Below, piece by piece: positions 2,598 through 29,632 of a DNA stretch of 33,948 nucleotides (its first letter is position 1; every line of letters starts with the position of its first letter). Below the pieces are notes generated by a model. The model had not been told where the DNA came from and did not search any database. It was given only the letters and a program-made list of their open reading frames with translations. Source of the DNA: Alkalicoccus sp. (GTDB taxonomy: Bacteria; Bacillota; Bacilli; Bacillales; Salisediminibacteriaceae). Where the stretch lies: positions 1-33,948 of the forward strand of contig REBZ01000070.1 of NCBI GenBank assembly GCA_007692495.1, in the 5' to 3' direction. Position numbers and translations under genes: made by a program.

Positions 2598-3290
2598 ATG
2601 AGATTTTCAGAAAAGCTGAGACAGGAAGCGGATCCGATTTATGAAGCAATTTTTAAGCATCCGTTTGTACAGGGAATCGCAGAGGGCAGTGTGCCGAAAG
2701 AAGCGCTCATTCACTACGTAAAGCAAGATTATGAATATTTAACAGCCTTCTGCCGCATTTACGGAATGGCTGTATCGAAGTGTGAAAACAGAGAAGAAAT
2801 GGCCTTCTTCCAGAATCAGATTGGATTTATTCTTCATGAGGAAATTCATCCACACAATAATTTCTGTGAAGTGGCAGGGGTGCGGTATGAAGACCTTCAA
2901 AAAACTCCACTCGCACCGACGGCCCACCACTATACGAAGCACATGCTGGAAGCTGCTTCCGGCGGTACGCTTGGTGAAACATTGACGGCGCTTGCACCAT
3001 GTCCGTGGACGTACTGGGAGATTGGAAGCCGACTGATGAAGGAAGCAGATCTTTCTCCGGATCATCCTTTTTACGACTGGATTACTTTTTATGGTGATAA
3101 AGAAGTGGCGGAGATCACGGGTGCTTTTAAAAAAATGATCGACGATTGTGCAGAGAAGGCCGGCGAACGGGAGCGGGAGCAGATGCTTGAGAATTTCCTC
3201 GTGAGTGCCCGTCTGGAGCACCGGTTCTGGACGATGGCTTATGAGCAGGAGACATGGGAAACTGTGAATTCCTCTTTTGACCCCAAGTGA
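2598..3290 (+). CDS. tenA: Thiaminase II / aminopyrimidine aminohydrolase TenA
   Basis: This 230-residue protein matches the family length. It hydrolyses aminomethyl-aminopyrimidine (and thiamine) to HMP, salvaging the pyrimidine moiety for thiamine synthesis in the cytoplasm. Recognisable residues are Asp44 in VKQDYEYL, the nucleophile Cys135 in APCPWTYWEIG and a catalytic Glu near 207 in ARLEHRFW. The ATG at 2598 is chosen because AAAGGAGGA precedes it by eight bases; the longer frame from 2532 starts inside the riboswitch terminator. It is a single gene under a TPP riboswitch with no other thi gene nearby. No terminator is obvious downstream. Confidence 0.96.
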   Translation: MRFSEKLRQEADPIYEAIFKHPFVQGIAEGSVPKEALIHYVKQDYEYLTAFCRIYGMAVSKCENREEMAFFQNQIGFILHEEIHPHNNFCEVAGVRYEDLQKTPLAPTAHHYTKHMLEAASGGTLGETLTALAPCPWTYWEIGSRLMKEADLSPDHPFYDWITFYGDKEVAEITGAFKKMIDDCAEKAGEREREQMLENFLVSARLEHRFWTMAYEQETWETVNSSFDPK

Positions 3291-14823: not shown

Positions 14824-15522
<699 letters not shown>

Positions 15523-15525
15523 TTA

Positions 15526-16412
15526 ATGAAAATACTTACAGCAGGCATTCTGCTTCTGCTGCTGACTGTAATCATCAGTACAGGAACCGGGGCTTCCTCT
15601 TTATCACTAGGCCGTGTGCTGCCGGTTTTATCCGGCCAGGGCAGTTTCCCGGAATCATTCGTATTATTTTCTGTCCGGCTTCCGAGGATAGCAGTCACAC
15701 TTCTTGCCGGAGCGGCTCTGGCAGTGTCCGGGGTCATCCTGCAGGGACTGACAAGAAATGATCTCGCCGATCCGGGAATCGTCGGTATTAACTCCGGTGC
15801 CGGCGTGGCTGTGGCCGTTTTCTTTTTGTTTTTCCCAGTTTCTGCAGGAAGCTTTGTTTATAGACTTCCGATAGCAGCATTTTTTGGTGCTCTTGTGACG
15901 GCTGCACTAATTTTTTTTGCTTATGAAAAGCATCAGGGTCTTCATCCGACCCGGTTCGTTCTTGTAGGCGTCGGGTTTTCCCTGGCCTTGTCCGGGCTAA
16001 TGGTTGTCCTTATTTCCGGTGCCGACAGGGTAAGGGTGGAGTTTATTGCTAAATGGCTGGCAGGAAACATATGGGGAACAGACTGGCCGTTTGTTCTGGC
16101 ACTGCTCCCCTGACTGCTGCTGCTTTTTATTTTACCCGGGAACTGAACATGCTCCGGCTTGGTGAAGAAACAGCTGTCGGTGCAGGGGTGGCAGATTCAA
16201 AAAACACAGGTGCTGCTTCTTTTGACAGCTGTAGGCCTGGCAGCGTCCGCTGTATCTGTTACAGGAGGCATGGCGTTTGTTGGACTGAAGAACCGCACAT
16301 TGCCCGGTCATTAACCGGGGCCGATCATCGTCGTGTGCTGCCGGCAGGTATCGTCGTTACGCTTCTCGGTGCACCTTACTTTATTTATCTGCTTCTCCGG
16401 AACCCTTTTTAA
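15526..16412 (+). pseudogene. Iron-siderophore ABC transporter permease (FecCD family), degraded
   Basis: The segment from [13 protein letters not shown] reads well as a FecCD permease: RLPRIAVTLLAGAALAVSG, LTRNDLADPGIVGINSGAG and FIAKWLAGNIWGTDWP. A TGA at about 16111 replaces the expected Trp. The homology then jumps frame to RELNMLRLGEETAVGAGV, back to AVSVTGGMAFVGL and again to EPHIARSLTGADHR, so at least three frameshifts are present. About 33 residues are lost between the DHRRVLPA and GIVVTLLGAPYFIYLL segments. No ribosome binding site precedes the ATG. It once imported ferric siderophores with a binding protein and ATPase that are not in the window. Confidence 0.88.
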
Positions 16413-16739
16413 TGTAGTAAGACGATTGAACAAAACCTTCACGAATGTTGTCGTGAAGGTTTATTGTGTTTTTCAAGTATAAGTTTGTGTTTCTATGCTT
16501 TCCACAGAGGGAAACAGGTAAAGGCAGGGAGAGCACGGAATTTTCCCGCACAGAACATGACATACAACGATAAAGCATCAAACAGGCTCCGGGATAAAAG
16601 ATATTGCATTACGAAACACAAGTATGTAAAAAATTAAACTTCTTTCGTTTCAGGTATATTTTTTGACCTGTGCGGGAATAGGAAGTGCACGCGTGATATA
16701 AATATCCAGAGGAATCTGGAAAAAGGAGTGAGTTACCAT
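16413..16739. other. Gap with a hairpin and the gvpA leader
   Basis: This 327-base region contains the hairpin at 16433-16462 and the upstream region of the first gvpA. No convincing SigA promoter was found. A GGGAAT at about 16675, preceded by a T-rich stretch, could be a SigB-like -10, but no good GTTT -35 sits at the right distance. Confidence 0.5.
16433..16462 (+). terminator. Hairpin after the FecCD pseudogene
   Basis: A perfect 11-base-pair stem, AAACCTTCACG with CGTGAAGGTTT, encloses an eight-base loop. It has a modest T-rich tail (ATTGTGTTTTT), so it is probably the old terminator of the FecCD gene. Confidence 0.6.
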
Positions 16740-17003
16740 ATGGGAATTCAAAAAAGTACAGATTCATCCAGTCTGGCCGAAGTTATCGACCGCATACTTG
16801 ATAAAGGAATTGTCATTGATGTATACGCCCGAATATCTGTAGTAGGTATAGAATTAATTACGATCGAGGCACGAGTCGTCATTGCCAGCGTGGATACGTG
16901 GCTCCGCTATGCGGAAGCTGTCGGCCTTCTGCGGGACGAAGTGCAGGGGGAAATAGATTCAGATCTGTCAGAAAGCAGCCGGGGCCAGCTCAGCTACTAT
17001 TAA
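16740..17003 (+). CDS. gvpA: Gas vesicle structural protein GvpA, copy 1
   Basis: This 87-residue protein is clearly Gvp[22 protein letters not shown], then [29 protein letters not shown], almost identical to the GvpA/GvpB proteins of Bacillus megaterium. GvpA is the small hydrophobic protein whose ribs form the gas vesicle wall. The ATG at 16740 is used; a GTG at 16728 overlaps the AAAGGAG binding site. The gap between binding site and ATG is long (11 bases), as in copy 2. The acidic C-terminal tail differs from copy 2. None of the accessory genes needed for vesicles (gvpF, L, N, G, K, J, S) is in the window, so vesicle formation from this locus alone is doubtful. Confidence 0.95.
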
Positions 17004-17073
17004 CATCCGCCGGAAATGAAACAGCGGAAGCATATTTAAGACGATTTTCAAAGGAGAGGAGTGAACTGTTTTA

Positions 17074-17337
17074 ATGGGGATTCAAAAAAGTACGGATTCA
17101 TCGAGTCTGGCAGAAGTCATCGACCGCATACTTGATAAAGGAATTGTCATTGACGTATACGCCCGTATCTCCGTGGTAGGCATTGAGGCGATTACAATCG
17201 AGGCACGAGTCGTCATTGCCAGCGTGGATACATGGCTGCGCTACGCCGAAGCTGTAGGTCTGCTTCGGGATGAAGTGCAGGGCGAGATTGATGCGGATCT
17301 TTCCGAAGACGGAGAAAAGCAGCTCAGCTATTTTTAA
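17074..17337 (+). CDS. gvpA: Gas vesicle structural protein GvpA, copy 2
   Basis: This second 87-residue GvpA starts 70 bases after copy 1. It is identical to copy 1 over most of its length; it has Ala instead of Leu at residue 39 in [11 protein letters not shown], Ala instead of Ser near 74, and a different tail ([11 protein letters not shown] against [11 protein letters not shown]). The DNA shows two runs of 35 identical bases separated by stretches with many silent differences. AAGGAGAGGAG precedes the ATG, 12 bases from its last G. It is probably co-transcribed with copy 1, since no terminator separates them. Paired GvpA paralogues occur in other bacilli, but normally within a full gvp cluster. 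Confidence 0.95.
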
Positions 17338-17416
17338 AAACAGTTTCGAATGAAAAAGAAGTGCCATCAGCAGATTGTTAGTTATCGGAAGTCGATTTAT
17401 GAGGGAGGGATGTATA

Positions 17417-17590
17417 ATGTCAGACAGCAGCAGAGATAAAGCCGAAGGAAAAGGAAGCCAGGCTAAGGGAGTAATGAAAGAAAAGACTGGAAAAGCAGTG
17501 AAGGACGACAAGATGGCCCGGGAAGGTACAAAAGAAAAAGCGAAAGGCTATGCAAAGGAAAAAAAGGGAGAAATGAAAGATAACCAATAA
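17417..17590 (+). CDS. CsbD-like general stress protein
   Basis: This 57-residue, Lys/Glu/Gly-rich protein has the CsbD pattern of repeated helical segments (GKGSQAKGVMKEKTGKAVKDD, then EGTKEKAKGYAKEKKGE). CsbD-like proteins are small soluble stress proteins of unknown mechanism, under SigB in Bacillus subtilis. The ATG at 17417 is used because GAGGGAGGG precedes it; the frame extends upstream to 17375 without a binding site. It follows gvpA copy 2 by 79 bases and ends in a very strong terminator, so the three genes may form one stress-type unit. Confidence 0.82.
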   Translation: MSDSSRDKAEGKGSQAKGVMKEKTGKAVKDDKMAREGTKEKAKGYAKEKKGEMKDNQ

Positions 17591-17644
17591 AACTTACTCA
17601 AAAAGCTGCCCGCTGTGAAAGCGGGCAGCTTTTTGAGTAAGTTT
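17590..17644 (+). terminator. Very long perfect terminator hairpin after csbD
   Basis: A perfect 24-base-pair stem closes a seven-base loop (TGTGAAA). The stem contains AAAAAGCTGCCCGC and GCGGGCAGCTTTTT, so either strand can terminate. It also lies downstream of the minus-strand YeiH gene and may serve both. Confidence 0.9.
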
Positions 17645-17763
17645 GCATTATTGAATAGCTCTTCCTGTAATTATTAAGCTTCCGTGCTCAATAAAGGTCT
17701 CGCGTAAGGTGTAAGCAGGGAACTGGAGACATAAAAAAACACTTTTTCGACTTTATAAGGATA

Positions 17764-18867
17764 TTAAATCCATCCTCCGAGAAGTGAGACCATTACGAGA
17801 CTGACAAGAGACACAGTCACAGCCGCAATGATGCCAACGATCAACGGCCGGATACCGAGTTTACGAAATATAGCTAAATTTGTTGAAAGACCGACAGCGG
17901 CGAGTGCTGTGCTGAGAAAGTACGTTGTACCAGCGTGACTGATTCCCTGCCATAACGCAGTCCATATATTTGGGGACAGCAGACCAAAAGCGAGGTTTGT
18001 GCTTTCTGCCGTAGTATCTCCAATAGTCCGGACAACAGCCATGAGAAGAAAGCCGATAACAAAATAAGGGAACAGCTGGCGGAGGGGTTTCTGCTTTGTC
18101 TCGGCGCGGCTGTTTCTGAAATATAAATAAGACATGAGAGGTACTACAGCAATCAAAAAGGCGTTGCGCGTCAGTTTTGTGACGGCTGCTGTATCGACCA
18201 CCTGCTGGGAATCGTAAAGCTGATCGTAAATAAGCGAGGCACCGATTACCTGAGAGGTGTCATGAATAGCGGTGCCGAGAAATAGGCCTGCACGAACCGG
18301 GTCTCCGCTGAAAAAAGTATAAGCGAGATAAGGATAAAGAAACATACTTGCCATACCGAATAAAGTGACAATAGCTACGGCGTAAGAAATTTCCGGTTCT
18401 TTTGCTTTAATAGCAGGAGCAGTTCCCATTATGGCTGTAATACCGCATATGCTGGTCCCGACTGCAGTGAGGGTTCCCAAGCTCCGCTGCTGGTTCAGAA
18501 GGCGGGCAGCCCATAAAGTTGTTACTAAAGCTGCAGTAATACACATAATAATAATAGGAAGGCCCCAGGCACCGAGAGTAATTACATCGAGAAGGCTGAG
18601 ACGGAGACCAAGGAGAATGATGCCTGCTTTCAGTACTAAACTCATTGCAAATGAAATTCCTTGTGCAAAAACGTCATTAACACCGATCGTATTGCGGATA
18701 ACGACTCCGAGAAGGACAGCTGTAAAAATAGCGGATAGTGGATTTTCCCCTTCCGTAATTCCAGTGATCTCAAGCAGCCGTCCTGCAAGGTCCGTTATCA
18801 GCAGAGCGGCCCCCATTAGTGCAATACACAAAACGAGGCCCGGGATAATAGCTTTTAATTTGTTCAT
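17764..18867 (-). CDS. YeiH family membrane protein, putative sulfate exporter (UPF0324)
   Basis: This 367-residue protein has about ten membrane helices. Family landmarks are NPLSAIFTAVLLGVVIRN, the GIILLGLRLSLLDV segment, LGTLTAVGTSICGITAI and the AIHDTSQVIGASLIYD motif. YeiH proteins are predicted to export sulfate or related anions, but this is not well proven. GAGGAG lies 11 bases before the ATG. It is 33 bases downstream of the racemase gene on the same strand, and the two may be co-transcribed. Confidence 0.88.
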   Translation of the reverse strand: MNKLKAIIPGLVLCIALMGAALLITDLAGRLLEITGITEGENPLSAIFTAVLLGVVIRNTIGVNDVFAQGISFAMSLVLKAGIILLGLRLSLLDVITLGAWGLPIIIMCITAALVTTLWAARLLNQQRSLGTLTAVGTSICGITAIMGTAPAIKAKEPEISYAVAIVTLFGMASMFLYPYLAYTFFSGDPVRAGLFLGTAIHDTSQVIGASLIYDQLYDSQQVVDTAAVTKLTRNAFLIAVVPLMSYLYFRNSRAETKQKPLRQLFPYFVIGFLLMAVVRTIGDTTAESTNLAFGLLSPNIWTALWQGISHAGTTYFLSTALAAVGLSTNLAIFRKLGIRPLIVGIIAAVTVSLVSLVMVSLLGGWI

Positions 18868-23264: not shown

Positions 23265-23448
23265 AAGTTTCTCCTGTTCCTTATCGATAGAATAAATAAT
23301 ATGTAAGAACTGCATTCTATTCTAACAAAAAGAAGCAGAAGAAGCTCTAAAAGCTGATGCGGCAGCGTAAGTCTGTATTTGTTTATTGGTTAAGTTATTA
23401 TCATTCCAGTCATTGTTTAAGCTCCTGTGCTGCTCCCGAAGAGATGAT

Positions 23449-23550
23449 TCTGAGGCGATAAAGAACGAGGCGTAGATTAGTTTCGATGGAAGAAATCAGC
23501 TGAGGCCGGCCCGCCGGGGAAACGTCTTAAAAGGCGAAAGCAGGGAACTG
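23449..23550 (+). repeat. Dispersed repeat R3, copy 2
   Basis: GAACGAGGCGTAGATTAG, GGAAGAAATCAGCTGAGGCC and GGCGAAAGCAGGGAAC align with the reverse complement of 29426-29540 and, in the first half, with 809-866. No protein frame is shared by the three copies, so this is a non-coding repeat. Confidence 0.65.
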
Positions 23551-29305: not shown

Positions 29306-29425
29306 AACGTGACACTCGCTTTTCACAATCACTCAGTTTAAAGATTGTTCAGAAAAAGCCGACTGGGATGAAATTTCCAGCCGGCTTCAGGCTGTTGATA
29401 AAGTGTTTTTTATGTATAGATAGAC

Positions 29426-29540
29426 GGTTTCCTGCTTCCGCCTTCCGGGACGCTTCCGGGCGGGCCTCAGCTAATTTCTTCCTAAACGGATCTTCGCCTC
29501 GTTCTTGATCGCCCCGGAATCGCCCCTGCGGCTGCGGCAG
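29426..29540 (-). repeat. Dispersed repeat R3, copy 3 (inverted)
   Basis: The reverse complement contains GGGGCGATCAAGAACGAGG, GGAAGAAATTAGCTGAGGCC and GGCGGAAGCAGGAAAC. It matches 809-866 in its first half and 23449-23550 over its whole length. Confidence 0.7.
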
Positions 29541-29632
29541 AGAAATAGAAAGAAGTTTTCTGCGCATCCAAAAAAGGACAGTACCTGCATCAATAGACAA
29601 ATTTCTCCATTAAAAGTAATGTTCAAGTTTAG

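Follow-up and report, generated by a model that had tools for sequence, protein, structure and literature searches.

The window analysed here, a stretch of 33,948 nt corresponding to contig C213 of a draft genome (2.74 Mb, 220 contigs, 80.8% complete) of Alkalicoccus sp., a bacterium of soda-lake type, harbors a compact unit of three plus-strand genes, gvpA1 (16740-17003), gvpA2 (17074-17337) and a csbD-like gene (17417-17590), without adjoining gvp accessory genes. Both gvpA genes are intact frames of 87 residues that match the Pfam family Gas_vesicle (PF00741) with 56.6 and 51.1 bits, respectively (cut-off 25 bits), in agreement with an initial annotation that had recognized two near-identical GvpA genes at this position. 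The term near-identical fits the proteins, which differ in 7 of 87 residues, six of them among the last 14, but it fits the DNA less well, because 29 further codons differ synonymously and 45 of 264 bases differ overall. The third gene, initially described as a CsbD stress gene, encodes 57 residues and scores 39.1 bits against PF05532 (cut-off 40). For the orthologues found in two relatives, the scores are 41.8 and 41.3 bits, with the profile match of the former extending over the stop codon and the frames of both being open over 56 residues. As judged by eye, a Shine-Dalgarno-like stretch precedes the start of each of the three genes.

The unit is followed by a long hairpin (17590-17644, not assigned to a strand), which lies between csbD and a convergent downstream gene and likely serves as a terminator. 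It folds with 25 pairs as part of a predicted structure of -44.7 kcal/mol (z -11.5 relative to shuffled sequences), and a stem scan counts at least 20 pairs on both strands, so that the hairpin underlying the previously proposed very strong terminator is indeed present. A much smaller hairpin with a 6-pair stem is located in the leader, 5' of the ribosome site (16705-16720, plus strand). It forms in the predicted fold, although the scan classes its stem as terminator-like on the minus strand; one stem base is changed in both relatives with retention of a G-U pair (by eye), and the complete leader does not clearly exceed shuffled sequences in stability (z -0.85). A profile search of the window contig returned gvpA1 and gvpA2 as the only matches to PF00741, and none of the nine window proteins scanned by profile represents another gvp gene.

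The genes on either side lie outside the operon. Upstream, a FecCD iron permease (15310-16412, plus strand) is broken, with the two ends of its PF01032 match falling into two overlapping frames, whereas the copy of Alkalicoccus saliphilus (L027) is intact and comprises 335 residues; the description of this flank as a dead iron permease thus proved accurate. In an alignment with L027, the adjacent window positions 15523 and 15524 map to positions 3003 and 6306, which indicates that about 3.3 kb are absent from the window. In L027, the missing span includes part of an oxidoreductase gene, a 278-residue frame, a binding protein and the first permease. The sediment MAG relative (L024) is interrupted at the corresponding point on the left, with a larger loss on the right side. 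The iron-siderophore permease region of the window (14843-16412) has undergone a deletion of about 3.3 kb and further decay, with a left breakpoint common to L024, while A. saliphilus retains both permeases and the binding protein in intact form. Downstream, the minus strand encodes a membrane protein of the Cons_hypoth698 family (PF03601; 17764-18867). This is the gene described earlier as a YeiH exporter. This YeiH-type gene occurs in the same three of eight genus genomes as the detached gvpA pair and is absent from the five that lack the pair, so that no empty site can be aligned from the downstream side. Given this patchy occurrence and the loss in the flanking permease region, the operon lies in a part of the chromosome that varies among Alkalicoccus species.

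A dispersed repeat of about 180 bp was also seen in the region. It is found in the window at 29386-29563 and, as less extensive matches, near 23413-23550 and 786-902, and has at least 40 matches in the source genome (40 of 149 candidates scored) as well as matches in all six genus genomes searched. In A. saliphilus, two oppositely oriented copies (L027 7341-7537 and 9103-9283) flank the detached gvpA operon; no copy was matched at the equivalent places of the window.

The same draft genome contains five matches to PF00741, of which two fall into the window and the other three into contig C189. In the section of C189 from 3.5 to 10.2 kb, open frames encode GvpT (NF041669), GvpU (NF041667), GvpB, GvpO/R (PF05800), GvpN (TIGR02640), GvpF and GvpL (both PF06386), GvpG (PF05120), the GvpA-like GvpS, GvpK (PF05121) and GvpJ (PF00741), with the labels B, S and J assigned according to the gene order of B. 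megaterium (PMC11223475). The cluster additionally includes a GvpQ-like protein, whose 38.5 bits lie below its cut-off of 100, and an acidic protein with no family match above cut-off. In B. megaterium, R, T and U are reported to be dispensable and A, P and Q were found so earlier, leaving a set of B together with N, F, G, L, S, K and J (PMC11223475). All members of this core are present on C189. The apparent lack of accessory genes therefore holds for the window contig but not for the genome, in which a search for GvpF, L, N, G, K, J and S found every one of them. Missing machinery was thus rejected as an interpretation, and of the possibilities raised initially, a dispersed structural locus with its accessory cluster elsewhere is the one supported, both by the C189 cluster and by the relatives described below.

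Matches to PF00741 occur in all eight Alkalicoccus genomes, and the detached gvpA1-gvpA2-csbD arrangement in three of them, each of which also carries a main gvp cluster. Besides the source genome, the carriers are, as identical coordinates show, Alkalicoccus saliphilus 6AG and CSSed10_241R1, a MAG from sediment; each of these two named assemblies contains the detached operon as well as the main cluster. We rejected a binning artefact as the cause, because A. saliphilus 6AG is an isolate assembly. At the level of the family, a GvpA match is present in 17 of 35 genomes, with the detached pair restricted to the three Alkalicoccus genomes, and the remaining 18 lack both. Among 78 named loci fetched with gvpA1, 76 have accessory genes and two represent the detached pair; at both of these named orthologues, accessory genes are absent. 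In a sample of 249 genomes from the order, which leaves out the other two carriers (G005 and G006), 56 had a strong match, 27 of them a single one and 29 at least two copies. The linkage figures cover these 29 genomes: in 28, a single contig carries two copies separated by 0.8-1.4 kb, and the exception is the source genome, with two copies at a distance of 0.33 kb and one more on C189. Two of the 28, G196 and G268, have a third gvpA copy; these copies were considered as further detached genes and rejected, because each belongs to a second cluster with its own O, F, G, L, S, K and J. A search of 50,697 phage records gave no gvpA match, and 43 plasmid records match, the two best with 82% identity over 61 residues.

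Several other gvp loci came to light in these comparisons. L153 (3014-3910, minus strand) and L154 (3157-3915, plus strand) encode a GvpA with a long C-terminal repeat tail and have other gvp genes adjoining. Their tails weakly resemble apolipoprotein (33.8 and 32.2 bits, cut-off 90), and it would be uncommon for a shell protein to bring its own amphipathic tail. No gvpN was detected within the 7 kb retrieved for each of these two loci; likewise, tblastn found no gvpN at the usual place in L029, L042, L072, L080 and the second clusters of L151 and L152. GvpN is described as essential in B. megaterium in the abstract of a study whose first screen listed it as possibly not so (PMC11223475). G002 has, besides a full cluster, a separate small locus (L155, 3908-5982) with a TetR-like regulator (by eye), gvpL and a gvpJ-like gene. 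In G018 (L156, L157), the cluster is split into gvpQ-B-O-N-F-G and gvpL-S-K-J, two parts of one contig that are separated by about 1.1 Mb, and in L043, too, the sequence covered after gvpG was found to lack L, S, K and J.

The sequence of GvpA1 places it with the main shell type rather than with the GvpJ or GvpS side branches. It is 92% identical to the gvpB product of the same genome over residues 1-86, whereas the GvpJ and GvpS frames share only 49% (residues 5-53) and 36% (residues 4-79) with it. Up to residue 73, GvpA1 and GvpA2 differ from this GvpB at two and three positions, respectively (by eye). Among solved structures, GvpA2 best matches 7r1c, the B. megaterium shell, and a gas-vesicle chain of 8gbs matches as well.

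All three genes are intact and their order is kept in the three genomes, with the gvpA pair under strong purifying selection. According to Nei-Gojobori estimates, which here concern short genes from three closely related genomes, dS and dN between genomes are 0.36-0.83 and 0.010-0.021 for gvpA1 and 0.37-0.74 and 0.010-0.026 for gvpA2, giving omega values of 0.014-0.058 for the two genes. The earlier impression of intact and conserved coding sequences was thus well founded. For csbD, comparisons with the window copy yield a dN of 0.030-0.045, a dS of 0.22-0.27 and an omega of 0.11-0.20, showing that it is under weaker constraint than the gvpA pair. Within a genome, gvpA1 and gvpA2 are separated by a dS of 0.69-1.08, and the detached genes have reached saturation in their synonymous distance to gvpB of the main cluster; a recent separation of the pair from a linked cluster, which the initial annotation had considered, is therefore not seen. 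In a rebuilt tree of 21 rows, for which five of 26 rows starting two or three residues late were left out (they gave false branches of length ~10), the six A1/A2 rows form one clade apart from gvpB (support 99/98). Within it, the three A1 rows group together (98/93), as do two of the three A2 rows (99/95). The simplest reading of these data would be a single duplication before the three genomes split, with retention of both copies. The A1/A2 clade may or may not have arisen inside the Alkalicoccus gvpB lineage, a single Alkalicoccus clade having a p-AU of 0.30 for a set chosen after the first tree had been seen. The ranks of the between-genome distances differ between the two genes, the window being nearest to G006 for A1 and to G005 for A2, which may reflect recombination or gene conversion.

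The region 5' of gvpA1 is conspicuously conserved, with 89-91% identity over 120 bp across the three genomes, compared with 49-82% in the gap between gvpA1 and gvpA2 and 44-67% in that between gvpA2 and csbD. Within this block lies a candidate sigma-B-type promoter (16654-16679, plus strand; 6 + 14 + 6 bases), predicted 61-86 nt upstream of gvpA1. It was scored with a weight matrix derived from 16 sigma-B-like sites, found by means of the sigma-B consensus. The training sites stem from nine stand-alone csbD loci and seven sigB loci: of ten stand-alone csbD loci above or near the cut-off, L143 was left out for its weak best site, and the weaker CsbD matches L148-L150 and the sigB locus L160 stand outside the set (seven of eight sigB loci scanned). 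Ties in mismatches were settled by taking the site at the common position (L159, L161 and L163) or the GTTT site (L136). The candidate scores 13.1, at the low end of the leave-one-out range of 12.8-20.6 for the 16 training sites, whose own selection had depended on their resemblance to this consensus. Eight of 67,840 window positions score at least as high, corresponding to an expectation of 0.014 per 120 nt on one strand. The three genomes share identical hexamers and spacing, with the site beginning 86, 86 and 85 nt ahead of the start codon. The -35 hexamer is weak, lacking the GTTT present in all 16 training sites. A higher-scoring site at 16489 (14.9) drops to 11.4 in L024 and is without a counterpart above 6.6 in L027. 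A sigB gene scores above the cut-off in all eight genus genomes (TIGR02941), and csbD is listed in the SigB core set of B. subtilis (PMC7824861). Taken from these sequence features, the detached operon is probably under the control of sigma-B. Sigma-H and sigma-A readings of the conserved upstream block were considered by eye, and a promoter of another type may be present in it. In front of the main cluster, the sequence preceding its first gene scores at most 9.8, which is less than the range of the training sites, and the detached operon and the main cluster may thus be differently controlled.

This arrangement resembles several known systems without coinciding with any of them. Priestia (Bacillus) megaterium likewise has a near-identical shell pair, gvpA and gvpB, served by one assembly set (PMC9994262), but both copies lie inside the cluster, whereas Alkalicoccus has gvpB in the cluster and two more shell genes elsewhere with csbD. 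Several shell genes for one machinery are also reported for Anabaena and methanogens, there as identical copies inside the cluster and not as diverged paralogues outside it (PMC9501494). A stress sigma factor controls gas vesicle genes in Streptomyces coelicolor, where SigB acts on a whole gvp operon in another phylum (PMC5733086), while in Alkalicoccus the predicted sigma-B control would cover shell genes and no other gvp genes; upon acid shock, 11 of 16 gas-vesicle genes of S. coelicolor are reported to go up and two down (PMC2631018). The csbD gene of the Bacillus sigma-B regulon similarly encodes a small CsbD-family protein (PMC7824861). Of the ten stand-alone csbD loci in the genus, nine have a readable sigma-B-like site of their own, in contrast to the window csbD, which stands third behind two shell genes and has none (best score in the gap before it, -5.75).

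We consider it rather probable that the locus is a supplementary shell operon, probably driven by sigma-B, that feeds the vesicles made by the main cluster in one group of Alkalicoccus including A. saliphilus, an assessment based on comparisons of three closely related genomes, the only ones from which the operon is known. A simpler explanation, unlikely but deserving serious weight, is that the pair just adds gvpA dosage from a housekeeping or growth-phase promoter, with csbD as a chance neighbour, yielding the same vesicles without stress control. Several gvpA genes per cluster are indeed common, with seven reported in Anabaena flos-aquae and three to four in methanogens (PMC9501494), and the two-copy arrangement in 28 of the 29 multi-copy order genomes would fit such a role. 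However, the Alkalicoccus pair is detached and linked to csbD in every carrier, together with the sigma-B-like site, and a simple scan, which misses many real promoters, found no sigma-70-type site on the plus strand of 16300-17780. It is quite improbable, in our estimation, that A1 and A2 instead replace GvpB under stress to give vesicles of another width or collapse pressure, with alanine 39 of A2 tuning assembly. This idea draws on the presence of alanine at residue 39 of A2 in all three genomes. Across 110 GvpA-type frames from the 78 named loci, collected with a search pattern that misses more divergent frames, 64 have isoleucine at this position, 44 have leucine and two, both of them detached A2, have alanine. 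Vesicle diameter is reported to depend on the sequence of GvpA, and the seam between the half shells of B. megaterium is described as being sealed by Val35 and Ile37 of the beta-turn (PMC9994262). Residue 39 lies just past this turn, and alanine 39 may affect the seam. On the other hand, A1 keeps leucine at this position, the change in A2 may be neutral, and most other differences fall into the tail, corresponding to residues 67-88 that are flexible in the solved structure (PMC9994262).

A repurposing of the GvpA-type products for a stress role outside gas vesicles appears very improbable. The initial annotation had raised it, and the part of that suggestion concerning a stress operon fits the detached position, the csbD linkage and the conserved sigma-B-like site, but nothing indicates an exit from vesicle duty: the protein core is nearly that of GvpB, all pair-bearing genomes have the cluster, and the family genomes without a GvpA match also lack the pair. 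A decaying relic of a former second cluster, to which the broken iron permease next door might point, can practically be dismissed and was rejected, since the gvpA frames are open in three genomes and their omega does not exceed 0.058.

If the locus is a supplementary shell operon, transcription would start at the sigma-B-type promoter upstream of gvpA1 and end at the long hairpin that follows csbD. Extra GvpA would be made from the operon in response to general stress, such as salt, energy or stationary-phase stress, and N, F, G, L, S, K and J from the main cluster would insert it, along with the GvpB of that cluster, into the same vesicles. The additional subunits would then raise vesicle output or alter the shell, and CsbD would be a co-regulated stress protein without a vesicle role. 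A. flos-aquae GvpA placed in the B. megaterium cluster is reported to be incorporated into vesicles (PMC9994262; PMC11223475), which suggests that foreign or variant subunits can be accepted. Conversely, gvpA, which is the additional shell gene in the cluster of B. megaterium, is described as dispensable (PMC11223475), suggesting that extra copies need not matter much. A bolder proposal, for now tentative and on balance unlikely, is that a second, stress-sigma-driven set of subunits, encoded apart from the assembly cluster and including one with an altered residue next to the seam, might alter the composition, width or strength of the vesicles under stress and thereby place the organelle under two-input control.

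Extra gvpA copies are already known, but the detached place, the csbD linkage and the predicted stress control look new with respect to the open-access literature, in which gas vesicles were not found together with Alkalicoccus, nor with sigma B and gvpA, and in which one paper mentions both gvpA and csbD. The find is a modest one, because additional gvpA copies are well known and the data consist of sequence only. Nevertheless, the detached A1 and A2 proteins represent natural GvpA variants for vesicle engineering. Moreover, a selected, detached shell operon would uncouple the control of subunit supply from that of assembly and, for Bacillota, would connect gas vesicles with the general stress response.
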